Positions 65-37,311 of a stretch of 37,311 bases of DNA are shown piece by piece. A program made the position numbers and the translations under genes. The notes under the pieces were generated by a model. That model made no database searches and was not told where the DNA came from. It was given only the letters and a program-made list of their open reading frames with translations. Every line of letters starts with the position of its first letter. Position 1 is the stretch's first letter. The stretch comes from a virus, in the IMG/VR virus record IMGVR_UViG_3300045825_000260, positions 1 through 37,311 of that record, one strand, 5' to 3'.

Positions 65-433
65 CTAAATTACTGATCTGCGGACGGCACGCGCTCTGAG
101 CTTGACGTTCTTATGATTGAGGCTCTGGTAGCCGTAGCCGAAACTCTGACACCAGGCATAATCTGAGTAGTAAGAGTGCTGCGTATTTGACCAGTACCAT
201 TCTTTTTTGAACTGATCCGGAAGGTGTTTGTATAACAGCGCTTGTTCGACACGATCAGGCAGATCGCCGCCGATTGACGCAGCCCATTCCATCTGTTTAC
301 CCCACGATGCGTCATCGTTATCACCAGGGAGTAGGATTGCATGGTGACCGGTGCCATCAGGCTTGATGATCGCGCCGGCATAGATTTCGCCTTCATTCAG
401 TTCTGGTACTGCAATGGTTTTTTCGGTGTTCAT
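65..433 (-). CDS. DGR variable target protein 1 (C-type-lectin-fold, DUF1566-like)
   Basis: A 122-residue protein of the formylglycine/C-type-lectin-fold type diversified by DGRs. Conserved landmarks are GGDLPDRVEQALL at about residues 55-67, a YWSNTQHS motif, the variable stretch, and the ending LRARAVRRSVI. The last 37 residues or so are encoded by the variable repeat at 74-184. The start is well supported by AAGGAGG five bases before the ATG at 433. In the family the fold is a rigid scaffold whose surface residues vary to change ligand binding. The ligand is unknown here. The gene sits directly upstream of avd, as in many DGR cassettes, but inside an early-type operon rather than with the tail genes, so a virion location is not assured. 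A second version with other variable residues is at 37077-37311. Confidence 0.9.
   Translation of the reverse strand: MNTEKTIAVPELNEGEIYAGAIIKPDGTGHHAILLPGDNDDASWGKQMEWAASIGGDLPDRVEQALLYKHLPDQFKKEWYWSNTQHSYYSDYAWCQSFGYGYQSLNHKNVKLRARAVRRSVI
74..184 (-). repeat. DGR variable repeat VR1
   Basis: This 111-bp segment aligns without gaps to the template repeat at 36408-36518. In the core, positions 105-150, 11 substitutions are present and every one falls where the template coding strand has an adenine. Two further differences at 169 and 172 are at template guanines, near the 5' edge of the repeat. The 3' part (coding sense, 74-104) is identical to TR and should be the initiation-of-mutagenic-homology (IMH) segment. 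Confidence 0.95.
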
Positions 434-1696: not shown

Positions 1697-1851
1697 ATCG
1701 TGTGCCTCGCAAGCGCCCAGGAGACGGAGATGCACATTCCCTGTTTGCGGTAGTATCGGTAATGACCGATGCAGCGGATTACTCGTGTCAGCAAGTTAGC
1801 CTGGTGATACCCGCTCGGTTTGCGGCGGGGGAGTAGGATGGCGCGGTTCAT
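1693..1851 (-). CDS. hypothetical small basic protein, 52 aa
   Basis: A 52-residue basic protein beginning MNRAILLPRRKPSGYHQ, with a CIGHYRYYRKQG segment and ending WALARHTI. Both ends form ATGA overlaps with the flanking genes, a strong sign of a real translationally coupled gene although it is short. GAGG lies 11 bases before the ATG. The aromatic and arginine-rich helix pattern resembles many short phage proteins of unknown role. Confidence 0.55.
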   Translation of the reverse strand: MNRAILLPRRKPSGYHQANLLTRVIRCIGHYRYYRKQGMCISVSWALARHTI

Positions 1852-2234
1852 ACCGGCGTTCCCTCATCTTCATTTGAAATAATTGCCTGTACACCGAGTC
1901 GGAAAATGGCATCGAGCGCATCGTCCACCGTTCCATCCGGGTTGAGCATCAGAAATATATTGATAGCCACATCGGTGGCAACTACTCGATCGGGTATCAC
2001 GTTTACGGTATAGGTAGTAATGATGTGCTCCTCTTGTATCAGGGATGCTTCAGCGCTTTTGATGGAAGCAAATACTTGCTCTCGAATATGAGATGGTAGG
2101 AAGCTATCTGTGTCATATGGCCTTACGTAATCTGTGACCTCACCAGCAACAGCCTTCAGTGCGGCGAGCATTCCTGTGTTGATGCGGCAAATCTCGTTTT
2201 TTGGTACTGGTTGCGCTTTTGGTGGGTTCAACAT
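1848..2234 (-). CDS. hypothetical protein downstream of DGR target 2
   Basis: A 128-residue acidic protein beginning MLNPPKAQPVPKNEI and ending ISNEDEGTPV, with mixed helices and strands. The ATG at 2234 has GGAGA five bases upstream, the same leader (GGAGAAAATC) that precedes the gene at 752. The open frame actually extends upstream to 2804 only because of a 1-nt deletion in the DGR target 2 gene. I therefore annotate this gene from its own ribosome binding site. Function unknown. Confidence 0.65.
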   Translation of the reverse strand: MLNPPKAQPVPKNEICRINTGMLAALKAVAGEVTDYVRPYDTDSFLPSHIREQVFASIKSAEASLIQEEHIITTYTVNVIPDRVVATDVAINIFLMLNPDGTVDDALDAIFRLGVQAIISNEDEGTPV

Positions 2235-2277
2235 GATTTTCTCCAGCAAATGATCTGAGAAATGAATTGATAAATGA

Positions 2278-2717
2278 CTAAATAACTGATCTGCGGACGG
2301 CACGCGCTCTGAGCTTGAGGCCCTCCGACTGGTGCTCTGGGTGCCGTAGCTGAAACTCTGAAACCAGGCATAATCTGAGTCGTCAGAGTGCTGCGTGTTT
2401 GACCAATAAGCCTCTTCCTTAAACTCTTCATGCACGCATTCAAGCAACAGTGCTTGCTCAACACGGCTTGGCAGATCGCCACCGGCAGCCTTTGCCCGCT
2501 CCATCTGATTCGCCCAATTATCGGCAGCAAAATCAGTAGGCAATAAAATTATGTGGCATGTTTCACCGTTTGGGCGGGTGATAGAGCACAGGTATCTTTC
2601 ATCAGATGAAAGCGTTACGCCTTCGGGCAGATAGGGTGCTGGTAACTGTTCAAATGCGGCGATTAGGGCTGAAAGCCTGCTTTGTTCGGTCTTGATTTGA
2701 TCGAGTGTGACGGTCAT
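2278..2717 (-). pseudogene. DGR variable target protein 2, frameshifted in its variable repeat
   Basis: A second C-type-lectin-fold target. It starts at the ATG at 2717 (GGAGA upstream) and has a longer N-terminal region with a short helix (TLDQIKTEQSRLSALIAAFEQ) before the shared GGDLPSRVEQALL and AYWSNTQHS landmarks. Restoring one missing base between 2325 and 2326 gives the normal ending ARAVRRSVI with TAG at 2278-2280 and a protein of 146 residues. As written, the frame shifts inside the variable repeat, ends with the out-of-frame SERVPSADQ, and runs on into the next gene. The base may be truly lost in this molecule, lost during retrohoming, or an assembly error. Confidence 0.8.
2287..2396 (-). 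repeat. DGR variable repeat VR2 (110 bp, one base deleted)
   Basis: It aligns to the TR at 36408-36518 with one gap, between 2325 and 2326, where the template coding strand has a T. The other 14 differences in the core all lie at template adenines. The IMH end (2287-2317) and the 5' end, including GTCGTCAG, are identical to TR. Confidence 0.93.
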
Positions 2718-2745
2718 GGATGTCTCCGTTGGTTTGGTTTTAATT

Positions 2746-2866
2746 AGCATCAGGTAGGCGGCTGCTCGTAAAGCAGCGAGACATGGGCAATCGGCTTTTC
2801 TCATGCGGCGCTTTGTCGCGTTATCCGCTGCCGACCATGCTGCACTTGCTTCGCCTACCTGATGCT
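2746..2866. repeat. 15-bp perfect inverted repeat in the leftward leader
   Basis: AGCATCAGGTAGGCG at 2746-2760 is the exact reverse complement of 2852-2866, with 91 bases between. A smaller hairpin, GCTGC/GCAGC, lies just inside the left arm at 2761-2776. The element lies in the untranslated leader between the leftward promoter and the target 2 start at 2717. In the transcript it would form a long-range stem just ahead of the ribosome binding site. No convincing gene lies in 2718-2958. Confidence 0.7.
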
Positions 2867-3227: not shown

Positions 3228-4061
3228 CTAAAGTTTTGATAGGTTGGTCACAAGGTTGTAAGTGAACCAGCCATCGCCAGTGATGAATATTTGTGGTTTT
3301 GCGGTCGCGGTATCACGCATAATTCCAATGCCGTTGCTATATGTCTCAAAACTAATTATTTTTTGATATGGGAAACGCACACTTTTTTTCTGTCCTGAAA
3401 AATAAATATTTTTGTCGGTAATGATGACCCATCCGCTGTCTACGTGCACCCGCTCGGTATGCTCTACCGGGCGTCCTTTGAATGCTGTGGTGCGGTAATA
3501 GACACCTTTTGCAATTTTTATACTGACGCCATTTGACGCACCAACGAACTCGCGCCGAGTTTTATCTTCCAGAAATTCGGCATTTTGAAATGCCCAAACT
3601 ACCTGCTCTCCCTTTTGATAATTTATTGCTGGCAAACCATCAAGCTGAAACCTGTTTGATATGATGCCATCGCACAAGTCGCGCAGCACCGCTGATTTTA
3701 CAACTTTCGAGAGCGCGCCATTTTGATTTAAGTCTCGTTGTGATAATTCGAAGCGGGATTGAAAAGTGGCGAGTTTTGTTTCTTCCGTCCTGTCCAAGAT
3801 GTCATCAAAAAGAAATTCATCCACCGCGGCTTCAAAGCCAGATACCATGTGTGCAATTCGTTCTGATGCGGGAATAAGGGCGGATTGTTCAATCTGGTCA
3901 AGTGCCATTTCAAGTTTATCAAGTCCATCATCGCCATCAATGATCGCTTTCGACACTGCGGCGATCATTTGTTGTTGGCCTTGATGATAGCGCGCTTCGC
4001 ATTCTGGGTGTTTTTTCTTAAAAAACCCAGCTGGTTTTTTGCAATACAGGCAATCACTCAT
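3228..4061 (-). CDS. accessory protein: zinc-binding N-terminus and PH/GRAM-like C-terminus
   Basis: A 277-residue protein. It begins with a likely zinc site (C4, C7, H18, C21 in CLYCKK...HPEC), followed by a helical region at about 25-140. The C-terminal beta-rich domain at about 160-277 (GWVIITDKNIYFSG, then VRFPYQKIISFETY) resembles bacterial PH/GRAM-like domains that bind lipids or proteins. It lies 29 bp downstream of the repressor gene on the same strand, so it is probably expressed in the lysogen. That position is typical of superinfection-exclusion, defence or lysogenic-conversion genes; this is inference. No strong ribosome binding site is visible, so coupling to the repressor transcript is likely. 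Confidence 0.7.
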   Translation of the reverse strand: MSDCLYCKKPAGFFKKKHPECEARYHQGQQQMIAAVSKAIIDGDDGLDKLEMALDQIEQSALIPASERIAHMVSGFEAAVDEFLFDDILDRTEETKLATFQSRFELSQRDLNQNGALSKVVKSAVLRDLCDGIISNRFQLDGLPAINYQKGEQVVWAFQNAEFLEDKTRREFVGASNGVSIKIAKGVYYRTTAFKGRPVEHTERVHVDSGWVIITDKNIYFSGQKKSVRFPYQKIISFETYSNGIGIMRDTATAKPQIFITGDGWFTYNLVTNLSKL

Positions 4062-5473: not shown

Positions 5474-8043
5474 GCGCACTGGGATATAAGTCAAAGATTG
5501 ATTTCAAGCAAGTATCAGCAGCCGCATTAGGTCAATTAACTTCACTGGTTTCTGGTTGGCTGCCTGACGGTAAGAAAGCTGGGCCCGAGTGGAAAGCACG
5601 CAACCCAACACGTTCTGATACTAAGCCCGGCAGTTTCTCGATCAACCTGAATACCGGCGTCTGGTCTGATTTCGCAACAGGCGAATCCGGCGGCGATGCG
5701 ATCAGCTTGTATGCCTACCTGCATGGCATGAGCCCACTCGATGCAGCACGTGAAGTCGCGGCACAGATTGGTATGTCGGATGCAGGCGCACAACCCATCG
5801 CGCCCACGAAAAAGCCGCGCAGCGAATGGATACCAATATTGCCGGTGCCATCTGATTCCGGGCCATATCCAAAGGCCCACCCAATACGCGGTTTGTCACA
5901 GATGCATTGGGAATACCGCAATCAGGCAGGTGAGCTGCTTGGTGTGATTTACCGGTTTCAAACATCAGACGGCGGTAAGGAAGTATGCCCGTGTGTATAT
6001 GCGCGTCATCCTGTTACCGGTAAATGCGAATGGCGTTGGTTGTCATTCCCATCACCGCGCCCGCTGTATGGTCTGGATCGCCTACGTGATGGCGCTCCGG
6101 TGCTAGTGGTTGAGGGTGAAAAGTGCGCGGATGCAGGTCATGGCGTACTGTCAGATACCTTCGATGTCGTGAGCTGGCCGGGCGGTGGCAAGGCAGTGGA
6201 TAAGGCGGATTGGTCATTCTTGGCTGGGCGCAATGTGCTGATCTGGCCTGATTGCGATGCGCAGCGCGAAAAGCTGAGTAAGGATGAGCAATCCGCCGGC
6301 GCTTTACCGGAAAGCAAGCCGATATTGCCAGAAGCAGAACAGCCCGGTATCAAAGCTGCTGAAGCGATTGCGGCCCAGCTGTCGAAGCATGGTGCAAAAG
6401 TTCGTATCGTCGCCATTCCTGCACCTGGTGAAAAACCGTCCGGATGGGATATTGCGGATGCGATTGCTGAAGGATGGGGCTTTGATCAAATTATAGAATA
6501 TCTGCGCGCAAATCAGCGTGCACCTGCAGATTCTCCGGCACCACTTTCGAATTCTGCAACGGCGACGCAATCAGCCGTTGTCACACCAAAGTTAGATTCG
6601 TTGATCGCCCATTACGCGCTGGTTTACGGAAAAACCGATGTTTGGGACAGTCTGAATCGTCAATTGATCAAGAAAGCTGGGTTTGTAGCGCTGGTCGGTA
6701 ATGATCTGGCGAAGCAATGGCTGGCTCATGCTGATCGTCGCACCATCGATACGGAAGCGCTGCCGAAATTGCGGCGCGGTCGTGCAATCGAAGAGGGGGC
6801 GGGGGGTGGATTGGCTGTGATGTTACAGCGCTTCGTTTTGCTCTACGGGACTGTGACGGTGTGGGATAACGAGCTGCGCAAGGTTGTGGCAATGGAAAGT
6901 ATGCGTATGGCCTATTCGACTGACGATAAGGCAAAACGCTGGTTGGATCATCCTGCGCGTCTGATGATCGATGCGGATAACCTGGTGTTTGACCCAACGC
7001 AAAAGGTTTCACCAGATACACATGTGAATATGTTCGAAGGTTTTCCAGTTCACTCTAAACAGGATGAAGCGCTGTGCCAGCCGATCATTGATCTGTTATA
7101 TGAAATGTGCGGATCTGAAGAGGATTTATGCAGTGACACGGCGCACTGGATTTTGCGCTGGATCGCCTACCAGTTCAAAAATCCGGGCGCGAAGATGCAA
7201 ACAGCAATATTGATGTTTGGCGAAAAGCAGGGCACGGGTAAAAGTCTGTTCTGGGAAGGAATTGTGCGGGCTTTGTTTGGAAAATACGGCACGACGGCTG
7301 GCCAGCATCAACTTGATTCTCAGTTTACTGAATGGCGCTCATGCAAGCTATTTGTATTGTTTGAAGAGGTGTTGTCACGCAATGATCGATACAACCACCT
7401 TGGCACGATCAAACACATGATCACCGGGCGTGATCAGCGCATCAACCCGAAGGGTTTGCCTGAGCGGGTTGAAGCGAATCACATGAATTGCGTGTTCTTG
7501 TCCAATGAGCCGCAACCGATACCGCTGGAGCTGGAAGACCGCCGATTCATGGTGGTAGAGGCGCGCAATAGAATCAGTAATGAGTTCAAGGATCGTGTGG
7601 TGCATTCCATCAATAACGGTGGCATCGCAGCGTTCTATCATTTTCTGCTTAATTACGATCTGGGTGATTTCGACCCGCACACCAAACCACTGCGCACCAC
7701 TGCCCGCGACAAGATCGTTTCATTCGGCATGCCCGGATGGGAAGTGTTCTATCGAGAATGGAAGGATGAGCGTTTGGCGGTGCCGTACTGCTCATGCCTG
7801 ACCAGTGACCTATATCAGGCCTATAGGCGCTGGTGTGATCGCGCTTATGAGAAGCCGCTGACGCTGACTAAGTTTTCCTGCCTCCTTTCCAATCGTGAAA
7901 CGAAAAGCAAGCAGGAAGTCTGGTTTTCAAACAAGCGTAGCACATTCATGGTGTTTGAAATTTATCGTAAAGACGAAAAAGAATCTCTTAATAAACAATG
8001 CAATAGATTCAGAGAGTCTATATCTGGTCGTGAGGAATCGTGA
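5470..8043 (+). CDS. primase-helicase (TOPRIM plus SF3-type helicase)
   Basis: An 857-residue replication protein. Residues 1-105 form a primase-like N-terminal region (SGGDAISLYAYLHGMSPLDA). A TOPRIM-like segment starts near residue 210 (VLVVEGEKCADAG) with a second acidic motif (LIWPDCDA). A helicase domain has Walker A GEKQGTGKS at about 583-591, Walker B-like LFVLFEEV and a sensor segment CVFLSNEPQPIPLELEDRRF. The combination should prime and unwind phage DNA at its origin. The gene starts by a 4-bp overlap with the CII-like gene and is followed at once by an iteron-rich candidate origin. Confidence 0.88.
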   Translation: MSALGYKSKIDFKQVSAAALGQLTSLVSGWLPDGKKAGPEWKARNPTRSDTKPGSFSINLNTGVWSDFATGESGGDAISLYAYLHGMSPLDAAREVAAQIGMSDAGAQPIAPTKKPRSEWIPILPVPSDSGPYPKAHPIRGLSQMHWEYRNQAGELLGVIYRFQTSDGGKEVCPCVYARHPVTGKCEWRWLSFPSPRPLYGLDRLRDGAPVLVVEGEKCADAGHGVLSDTFDVVSWPGGGKAVDKADWSFLAGRNVLIWPDCDAQREKLSKDEQSAGALPESKPILPEAEQPGIKAAEAIAAQLSKHGAKVRIVAIPAPGEKPSGWDIADAIAEGWGFDQIIEYLRANQRAPADSPAPLSNSATATQSAVVTPKLDSLIAHYALVYGKTDVWDSLNRQLIKKAGFVALVGNDLAKQWLAHADRRTIDTEALPKLRRGRAIEEGAGGGLAVMLQRFVLLYGTVTVWDNELRKVVAMESMRMAYSTDDKAKRWLDHPARLMIDADNLVFDPTQKVSPDTHVNMFEGFPVHSKQDEALCQPIIDLLYEMCGSEEDLCSDTAHWILRWIAYQFKNPGAKMQTAILMFGEKQGTGKSLFWEGIVRALFGKYGTTAGQHQLDSQFTEWRSCKLFVLFEEVLSRNDRYNHLGTIKHMITGRDQRINPKGLPERVEANHMNCVFLSNEPQPIPLELEDRRFMVVEARNRISNEFKDRVVHSINNGGIAAFYHFLLNYDLGDFDPHTKPLRTTARDKIVSFGMPGWEVFYREWKDERLAVPYCSCLTSDLYQAYRRWCDRAYEKPLTLTKFSCLLSNRETKSKQEVWFSNKRSTFMVFEIYRKDEKESLNKQCNRFRESISGREES

Positions 8044-34872: not shown

Positions 34873-35300
34873 TCTGTAATCCTTTGGGCAAGTTTAACCT
34901 TCATCTCATCTAGTTCAGCGCGCAGCACATCGATCTGTAATCCGTATTCAAGTTGTGCTTGCGCGATGGCGCGGAAATAGCTTAATTTATCCCGCTCACT
35001 CTCCGTACGGAGTGCCGCGTTTTCAGCGCGCAGATCGTCATCACTTTGTATCGGAACATACGTTCTCTGCTCATCCGGGCGCATGACCTTGAACGATCCG
35101 TTCTGCCCGAAGCGCAGCCAGTTACCCTGGTGAATGCACAATAGCGACATTCCTTTTCCTCGCGCCATGATCGTGCCGCGTTCAAGTTCAAAACCTTCAT
35201 AACCTAGCTCGCGCAATTCTGCGGATACCGTGCTGAGATTTGTACCGTCCCATTGTAGTAGTCGTGCTTTGTATGCTCTTTTTTGATGTGTCCAGTTCAT
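34869..35300 (-). CDS. unknown protein coupled to the DGR reverse transcriptase
   Basis: A 143-residue protein. The first 85 residues are beta-rich (KARLLQWDGTNLSTVSAEL, GNWLRFGQNGSFKVMRPDEQ), and a coiled coil follows (DLRAENAALRTESERDKLSY to the end). The ATG overlaps the reverse transcriptase stop as ATGA, with CGGAG before it, so its translation is linked to that of the RT. It matches none of the DGR accessory types that I know (Avd, HRDC, MutS-like). It may be a regulator or an unrelated phage protein. Confidence 0.65.
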   Translation of the reverse strand: MNWTHQKRAYKARLLQWDGTNLSTVSAELRELGYEGFELERGTIMARGKGMSLLCIHQGNWLRFGQNGSFKVMRPDEQRTYVPIQSDDDLRAENAALRTESERDKLSYFRAIAQAQLEYGLQIDVLRAELDEMKVKLAQRITE

Positions 35301-36403
35301 GTTTTTCTCCGATAAATTTTTGTTAAGTTCCCGTTAATCGTGTGGCCGCGATATCGCAGGATGTTTGAAATCTTCGCGCGCTGGTGATAGCTGTTTGATG
35401 CCTGGCGAAATAGGCCGTAATAACTGTTGGCTGTTTCAAATAAGTCTTTGGTGTCGATACTATGGATTCGCTTGATCGCTTCGTTCACTGTACGTTTGCG
35501 CGTTGTACGGCACCATGGACGAATGACTTGGCCAACAAAGTCCACGCCGCGCGATACCGGTTGCAGAATGGTTTTTGATGGGTTGATCTTGGCGCGTAAT
35601 TTGTCAGCCAGAAACTCCTCGATCCGCGCTTTTGCGGCATTCAGCCATTGCGGCGATTCGTGAAGCAACACGAAGTCATCGACATAGCGGATATAGTGTT
35701 TCGCGCCGATCTGGTGTTTGACGAACTGATCCAACGAATCGAGATAAATGTTGGCGAAAAACTGCGATGACAAATTGCCGATCGGCAGGCCAAGATGCGC
35801 CGGGTGATTCACCAGGCGTTTATGTCTCGGTACCAGATCCGGCATGTCCGGATTACCGCGCAGCTCGTAGTCCTGGCGCGGATCGTGAAACAGAATCGTG
35901 TTGGATAGTTGCATCCACCATGGCTCAGTGACACGTTTTGCGATCAAGTCGCGTAGGATGTTCTTATCGATGCTGACAAAGAAGTTAGCTAAGTCCAGTT
36001 TCAGGTAGTGCGCTGGCCGGCTCCAGTTCTGCGTGATGCTGCGAATCTTCGTCTCGATGCGCTGGGCTGCATACAGTGTGCCGCGTCCTGGTATGCATGC
36101 GCAGCTGTCTGCAACGAACGATGCATAAAATCGCGGTGAGACTCGATTATAAAAAAGATGGTGCACGATGCGATCGCGGAAATCTGCGGCCCACACTTCG
36201 CGCGGTTTTGGGCGGGTGATTACAAAGCAGATCGAGCGGCACGGGTGATAGGTACCATCTCTCAGCTCATCGTTAAGATCGCATAGGTTTCGCTCAAGGC
36301 TCTGTTCGAAAGCCAAGGCGCTGGCAGTATTGCGTTTTGACTTCCGGCAGTCGATGTAAGCCTGCACCAGTTCGGCAAAGGTGAAATCAGCATGGTGGCG
36401 CAC
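35297..36403 (-). CDS. DGR reverse transcriptase
   Basis: A 368-residue retroelement-type reverse transcriptase. Motifs are FRDRIVHH, YLKLDLANFFVSIDK, LGLPIGNLSSQF with the DGR-typical GxxxSQ at about 209-214, YVDD at 240-243, and a C-terminal thumb region (RIHSIDTKDLFETANSYYGL). It copies TR RNA to cDNA with errors at adenines, with Avd as partner. I chose the GTG at 36403, which gives the usual length and N-terminus (FTFAELVQAYIDCRKSK). There is no strong ribosome binding site. The frame remains open upstream through TR to 36727, so the true start is uncertain. It overlaps the next gene by 4 bp. Confidence 0.93.
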   Translation of the reverse strand: MRHHADFTFAELVQAYIDCRKSKRNTASALAFEQSLERNLCDLNDELRDGTYHPCRSICFVITRPKPREVWAADFRDRIVHHLFYNRVSPRFYASFVADSCACIPGRGTLYAAQRIETKIRSITQNWSRPAHYLKLDLANFFVSIDKNILRDLIAKRVTEPWWMQLSNTILFHDPRQDYELRGNPDMPDLVPRHKRLVNHPAHLGLPIGNLSSQFFANIYLDSLDQFVKHQIGAKHYIRYVDDFVLLHESPQWLNAAKARIEEFLADKLRAKINPSKTILQPVSRGVDFVGQVIRPWCRTTRKRTVNEAIKRIHSIDTKDLFETANSYYGLFRQASNSYHQRAKISNILRYRGHTINGNLTKIYRRKT

Positions 36404-36407
36404 GGTT

Positions 36408-36518
36408 TGATCTGCGGACGGCACGCGCTCTGAGCTTGTTGTTCTTATGATTGTTGTTCTGGTTGCCGTTGTTGAAATTCTGATACCAGGCATAATCTGA
36501 GTCGTCAGAGTGCTGCGT
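36408..36518 (-). repeat. DGR template repeat TR
   Basis: A 111-bp template between avd and RT. In the target frame it reads NTQHS-type start, YAWYQNFNNGNQNNNHKNN and the ending KLRARAVRRS. Its many AAC/AAT codons are the signature of adenine-directed diversification. It matches VR1, VR2 and VR3 over their whole length. Five bases separate it from the chosen RT start. The upstream stretch 36519-36690 has no convincing gene and probably belongs to the template RNA. Confidence 0.96.
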
Positions 36519-36690: not shown

Positions 36691-37047
36691 CTACCGTACA
36701 GCGGGCGACGTTGCTTTGCGGCGCCATCCATTAGCCTGCTTTCCTACGCTGTTAGTCAGCTCGATCGCACTAGCATATTGCCCGGTAGAGATTAGCCGCT
36801 TGTCTCGTGAGAGGCGCAGTAACAGCTCACATACCTGTAGGCGTTCGATCAGATCGGTTAAGTGTGGCGCCTTGTCCTGGGCGCAATTCGCACGAAAAAC
36901 AAGAGCCATAATCTCAACACATTCGTCACTGACCTTACCGCCGATTGAGCGCTTGAACTCGCGCGGCATATTCTTGACTAGCTCAGTTACAACGTCGAGC
37001 AGGTCATAGGCAACTTTGTAGATTGGCAGGTTTGTATGGATGGCCAT
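36691..37047 (-). CDS. avd: Avd, DGR accessory variability determinant
   Basis: A 118-residue, mostly helical, basic protein of the four-helix-bundle Avd/S23-like family: YKVAYDLLDVVTELVKNMP, PREFKRSIGGKVSDECVEI, then APHLTDLIERLQVCELLLRL and ISTGQYASAIELTNSVGKQ. Avd forms a pentamer that binds nucleic acid and the reverse transcriptase and is required for retrohoming. It follows the target gene and precedes TR, the order of the Bordetella phage BPP-1 cassette. The promoter is not local; transcription from the upstream operon is likely. Confidence 0.92.
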   Translation of the reverse strand: MAIHTNLPIYKVAYDLLDVVTELVKNMPREFKRSIGGKVSDECVEIMALVFRANCAQDKAPHLTDLIERLQVCELLLRLSRDKRLISTGQYASAIELTNSVGKQANGWRRKATSPAVR

Positions 37048-37076
37048 GCTGAAATACCAAAAAAATAACTAAATTA

Positions 37077-37311
37077 CTAAATTACTGATCTGCGGACGGC
37101 ACGCGCTCTGAGCTTGCTGCCCTTACGAAGGCCGTACTGGTCGCCGTTGAGGAAATACTGATACCAGGCATAATCTGAGTAGTCAGAGTGCTGCGTATTT
37201 GACCAGTACCATTCTTTTTTGAACTGATCCGGAAGGTGTTTGTATAACAGCGCTTGTTCGACACGATCAGGCAGATCGCCGCCGATTGACGCAGCCCATT
37301 CCATCTGTTTA
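37077..37311 (-). CDS. DGR variable target protein 1, second variant (cut by window end)
   Basis: This is the C-terminal 77 residues of the same target protein as at 65-433, with the same conserved framework (GGDLPDRVEQALL, YWSNTQHS, LRARAVRRSVI) but a different variable part: YAWYQYFLNGDQYGLRKGS here against YAWCQSFGYGYQSLNHKNV at the left end. The 5' part lies beyond the window or, if circular, is the part at 300-433. Confidence 0.9.
   Translation of the reverse strand, partial: KQMEWAASIGGDLPDRVEQALLYKHLPDQFKKEWYWSNTQHSDYSDYAWYQYFLNGDQYGLRKGSKLRARAVRRSVI
37086..37196 (-). repeat. DGR variable repeat VR3 (second state of VR1)
   Basis: A 111-bp gapless match to TR. All 13 core substitutions lie at template adenines. 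One more difference, at 37181, is at a template guanine and is shared with VR1. The IMH segment is identical to TR. Confidence 0.94.

Follow-up and report, generated by a model that had tools for sequence, protein, structure and literature searches.

A candidate retrohoming frameshift allele in the second target gene of a phage DGR

The locus considered here is best compared with the diversity-generating retroelement (DGR) of Bordetella phage BPP-1 (Avd-RT-TR-VR; in part after PMC12875486), in which an accessory protein (Avd) and a reverse transcriptase (RT) are found together with a template repeat (TR) beside the RT gene and a variable repeat (VR) with adenine-directed changes, the latter residing in a target gene with a C-type-lectin-like (Lcl_C) match. 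Template slippage is discussed in passages of PMC12875486, which also mention, citing Wu et al. 2018, an earlier proposal that AAC repeats slip by multiples of three. That variable repeats break contigs and assemblies is stated in passages of another publication (PMC8008677). The literature covered comprised, by term matches only, PMC8144416, PMC8008677, PMC3521204, PMC6642488 and PMC4159848. No paper whose title and abstract were considered describes VR frameshifts of one or two bases; such frameshifts may be in print in Wu et al. 2018 or Handa et al. 2018, 2021.

The window, i.e., the whole stretch of DNA that was analysed, is the virus record IMGVR_UViG_3300045825_000260 at its full length of 37,311 bases. 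Its DGR resembles that of BPP-1 in Avd, the RT, the TR beside the RT gene and the adenine-directed VR; a C-type-lectin-like target would be a further likeness, the Lcl_C match being weak here (28 bits, below the cut-off). Unlike BPP-1, the window harbors two target genes, one of which carries a VR with an out-of-frame base loss.

The DGR and the ends of the contig

Marker genes for a large terminase, a portal, a major head protein, a tape measure, a tail fibre and an integrase point to a temperate tailed phage. The DGR is found on the minus strand and is, as judged from its sequence, of the ordinary Avd type. The Avd accessory protein is located at 36691..37047 (minus strand; bAvd PF22296, 54.5 bits, cut-off 40), the full-length TR of 110 bases at 36409..36518 (minus strand) and the DGR-type RT at 35297..36415 (minus strand; RVT_1, 62 bits). 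The open reading frame (ORF) listed for the RT extends to 36727, while the probable start is a GTG directly after the TR. TR, RT and Avd are all intact in sequence. The RT is at most 78% identical to RTs in IMG/VR and at most 88% identical to RTs in genomes, and most of these loci have TR-VR pairs.

The first target gene (65-433) contains VR1, which was read twice, once at each end of the contig. Allele a, at 75..184 (minus strand), is in frame with 11 of its 13 substitutions at TR adenines, and allele b, at 37087..37196 (minus strand), is also in frame, with 13 of 14 at TR adenines. The terminal overlap, i.e., 37013..37311 compared with 1-299, is identical at 280 of 299 positions, and the 19 differences all fall within VR1; TR adenines account for 18 and TR position 13 (G/T) for the remaining one. 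Because the two ends are one stretch that differs in VR1 only, the best reading of the record is a circular molecule of 37,012 bp or a circularly permuted genome, left unclosed by the assembler because two VR1 alleles are present. The same end pattern is seen in another IMG/VR contig (L009/G007), which has VR-like matches at both of its ends (5-49 and 36952-36996).

At window positions 169 and 172 (TR positions 16 and 13), allele a of VR1 differs from the TR at non-adenine G positions. These differences, one of which also separates the two alleles, perhaps mark the end of the homing tract. According to the alignment, the 3' end of the VR is unchanged relative to the TR. The Lcl_C match of the VR1 target (28 bits) and that of an intact relative of the VR2 gene (24.9 bits) both lie below the cut-off of 34.9.

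The missing base in VR2 and its effect on the second target

VR2, the variable repeat of the second target gene, is located at 2288..2396 (minus strand). The first-pass annotation had noted that one base is absent between 2325 and 2326 and that all other changes in this repeat are adenine-directed, and the alignment bears out both statements: VR2 comprises 109 bases compared with 110 in the TR, and 14 of its 14 substitutions are at TR adenines (an in-frame length of 111 bp, given earlier, included one extra flanking base). On either side of the lost base, the immediate neighbor is a substituted adenine. Only if the gap is set at TR position 72 are all 14 substitutions adenine-directed; any other placement leaves at least one non-adenine change. 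Because the repeat, the adenine bias, Avd and the RT together make up a canonical DGR, the match between VR2 and the TR is not a chance match. At the non-adenine positions of the TR, VR2 is identical in 71 of 72 cases and lacks the remaining one, which indicates little ordinary mutation since the last homing event.

The base loss destroys the C-terminal portion of the protein encoded by the second target gene. The conserved ending ARAVRRSVI and its TAG (2278..2280, minus strand) are kept in the unshifted frame, as they are in a relative, L246. The shifted frame passes this native stop and reads on through the downstream gene to 1848, which yields an ORF of 318 aa (1848..2804, minus strand); by homology to L246 and a second relative, L085, the natural start of the target is probably the ATG at 2717. 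The absorbed gene (1848..2234, minus strand) has its own ATG at 2234 and gave no Pfam or PHROG match.

In both relatives, the gene is in frame. L085 (IMG/VR 3300021137_000431) encodes an intact protein of 147 aa, which ends in QLRARFVRRSVIK followed by its own stop and shares 92% aa identity with the window gene over the 106 residues that precede the VR. In L246 (genome G469, which falls in the same family as the Gallionella MAG G008), the VR2 and VR1 genes are 82% and 85% identical, respectively, to those of the window at the nucleotide level. There the VR2 gene ends with RARAVRRSVI and a stop, after which a homologue of the gene absorbed in the window follows as a gene of its own. For the part before the VR, the dN/dS ratio is 0.12 relative to L085 (dN 0.038, dS 0.321) and 0.18 relative to L246 (0.093/0.508), values that show purifying selection on the N-terminal part of the second target. 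Since the gene is in frame and separate in two relatives and shows this purifying selection, the frameshift is recent, and it is private to the window record among the records compared. Neither the 31 conserved bases of the VR end nor 47 bases from the contig end had an exact match in any other record of viral_contigs, so that the search yielded only the one VR2 allele for this phage, and a blastn search with the VR2 region gave no match among annotated phages.

L246, the closest relative, differs from the window in another respect: at 6545-7882 (G469), other genes, among them one for a 172-aa protein that by eye is HNH endonuclease-like, take the place of Avd, the TR and the first part of the RT, yet both VR genes have kept their frame.

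The read-through and the next gene share one frame, which stays open for ~150 codons, and with an intact TR the shift is reversible in principle, observations that would fit a second target joined purposely to its neighbor or switched by repeated homing. However, L246 keeps the gene apart from the homologous next gene and L085 ends at its own stop, and on this evidence such a functional fusion was rejected as scarcely credible. It also agrees poorly with the nine other frameshifted VRs described below, in which the shifted frame reaches a stop 0-22 codons past the VR end in eight cases and after 44 codons in L257; recoding signals were sought by eye only. The fusion is thus better regarded as a by-product of the base loss, and the in-frame joining looks accidental.

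Out-of-frame indels in related variable repeats

DGR loci were gathered from IMG/VR, GTDB genomes and further genomes using RT queries. A TR was sought in the 450 bp before the RT, and VRs within the fetched stretch were aligned to it with a scoring that hardly penalises changes at TR adenines; at least four substitutions, 70% of them at adenines, were demanded, and minus-strand VRs were left out. Loci L001-L004, L085, L086 and L088-L096 stand outside this main survey, which covered 203 loci (16 without a VR) and reduced 405 alignments to 331 distinct VRs from 155 records. Two aligned repeats, in L119 and L120, were dropped as spurious and 15 new VRs were added, giving 344; the genomes examined last contributed a further 29, without any frameshift, which brought the total to 373.

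Initially, 11 VRs had a gap that closes the conserved frame. One of these, L099 (-23 bp), was taken off the list: its counterpart L006 (99.4% identity over 11 kb) carries identical substitutions and no deletion. At ~6890-7160, L099 lacks another nearby stretch in addition to the 23-bp piece of the VR, and the difference between the two is probably an assembly fault. Ten of the 373 VRs (2.7%) remain, with insertions of one base (L033, L145, L175, L184 and L194) or two bases (L041 and L069) or with deletions of one base (the window, L165 and L257), all inside the hypervariable core. The rest of the set of 344 comprises 333 VRs, and all but one of these (332) keep the conserved frame open over at least 60 codons, which means that frame breaks are seen only in hypervariable cores. 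Out-of-frame gaps at the 5' edge in L051, L054, L073 and L101 were discounted as alignment beyond the VR start, the frames being open. The single exception, L152, belongs to a distant DGR in which the VR gene (3770-4023) contains TAG codons in frame, of which one recurs in the TR; read with TAG as Q, the segment becomes YWSSTQSSS, which suggests stop-codon reassignment.

With the indel site taken as uniform over the VR and 100 bp upstream, the product of the core fractions is 2.5e-7 for the 11 initial cases, a rough figure that includes L099, whose gap lies just outside its substitution span, and that does not allow for the lower read coverage of variable alleles. The ten cases are also not fully independent, since L033 and L041 have TR and target in common, as do L175 and L184. 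In each of these pairs of related phages, the same target is frameshifted by different indels, hinting at slip-prone templates or dispensable targets. In-frame insertions of three bases within the core were found in 9 of the 373 VRs.

The gaps lie close to substituted adenines in all ten cases: such an adenine is found at most 3 nt 3' of the gap, i.e., on the side that the RT copies first. When random indels were simulated (268 made, 261 recovered), 55% had a substituted adenine within this distance, which gives 0.0024 for ten out of ten, with a measure that was picked after the data had been seen.

These data bear on the possibility that an ordinary replication error removed the base from VR2 once homing had last taken place. 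Such losses can befall any gene, and a single sequence gives no date. However, VR2 shows no other non-adenine change in 72 positions, the site has substituted adenines on both sides, and the survey found no frame break in the upstream parts of other target genes, compared with ten in the short cores. An ordinary deletion is considered highly improbable.

An artefact of assembly or sequencing must be weighed more seriously. VR2 may have been hypervariable in the sample and covered by few reads, such that an erroneous or chimeric path lost a base; with low coverage per VR allele in metagenome assemblies, the hypervariable core is where errors would accumulate as well. Variable repeats are known to break assemblies (stated in passages of PMC8008677), the contig does break at VR1, so that VR diversity troubled the assembler, and the deletion that sets L099 apart from L006 is present in one assembly only. 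Among ~102 VRs from isolate-type or cellular-genome records (73, assigned by record names and by the IMG number convention, and the 29 mentioned above), one is frameshifted (L175), and metagenome assembly may thus contribute to the other nine. On the other hand, the VR2 site is outside any homopolymer, and k-mer chimeras in an AAC-rich region would be expected to shift the sequence by three bases rather than one. The assembly passed VR2 unbroken, which by itself is no proof of one dominant allele. The best single argument for real frameshifts is L175, in which the frameshifted VR sits beside three in-frame VRs on a contig of 499,522 bp that belongs to a genome of 6.5 Mb. This contig is 100% identical to an IMG/VR record over 10,001 bp, and the two probably derive from the same underlying sequencing data; when searched for elsewhere, the L175 allele was present in its own contig only. 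Taken together, an artefact is unlikely as the source of the VR2 gap and ranks second among the explanations.

Origin of the frameshift and comparison with known systems

The likeliest of the explanations is an error in retrohoming. At a probability of roughly 60%, the phage's DGR itself produced VR2 as a real null allele, through slippage of the RT at mutated adenines. The RT would copy the TR RNA from its 3' end, misincorporate at an adenine, lose register and skip one template base before it continues, and retrohoming would then write the shortened cDNA into VR2. In favor of slippage are the 71 of 72 non-adenine positions kept in VR2, the position of the lost base between two substituted adenines, the recurrence of out-of-frame indels in related DGRs, all with a substituted adenine within 3 nt, the L175 case, the intact frame in L085 and L246, and the core insertions of three bases together with the AAC slippage in multiples of three treated in passages of PMC12875486; against it stand the low coverage of single alleles, the L099 deletion and the single frameshift among the isolate-type or cellular-genome VRs, as discussed above. 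Hence, the suggestion of the first-pass annotation that the base loss reflects a retrohoming error is the best supported one, with the loss during reverse transcription itself as its inferred part. The allele may persist because it is recent and because the first target, with VR1, remains intact. Since the TR is full length, a later round of retrohoming would overwrite the null VR2, a repair that, with the RT and Avd also intact, is possible in principle.

We propose the term retrohoming frameshift allele for a class in which an indel of one or two bases would arise during reverse transcription and lie within the hypervariable core, leaving the conserved frame undamaged on either side; in the placement of its gap, VR2 fits this description as judged from its alignment. 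If the indels are real, the DGR RT lost register in ~3% of standing VRs, which represents a measurable cost of diversification and a reason for keeping more than one target, and the link between misincorporation and slippage can be put to a plain test. For annotation, a fused or truncated DGR target may represent an off-allele rather than a gene fusion. A more speculative and quite improbable extension is that out-of-frame slippage serves as built-in, reversible silencing: with a chance of a few percent per homing round, and an undamaged template that lets the next round restore the gene, phages with several targets would display changing subsets of receptor-binding proteins.

The proposed slippage is similar to the in-frame AAC slippage (Wu et al. 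2018, as cited in passages of PMC12875486) in that both concern indels relative to the TR in the adenine-rich core of the VR. In contrast to slippage in multiples of three, the indels in the window and in the survey comprise one or two bases, and the frame is lost. A likeness is also found to the DGRs with inactivated RTs of the DiGReF study (in the matching passages of PMC3521204), in which one part is broken, changes are otherwise restricted to adenines and the inactivation is taken as recent. There, however, it is the RT that is broken, while here the RT, Avd and the TR are intact and the broken part is the target.
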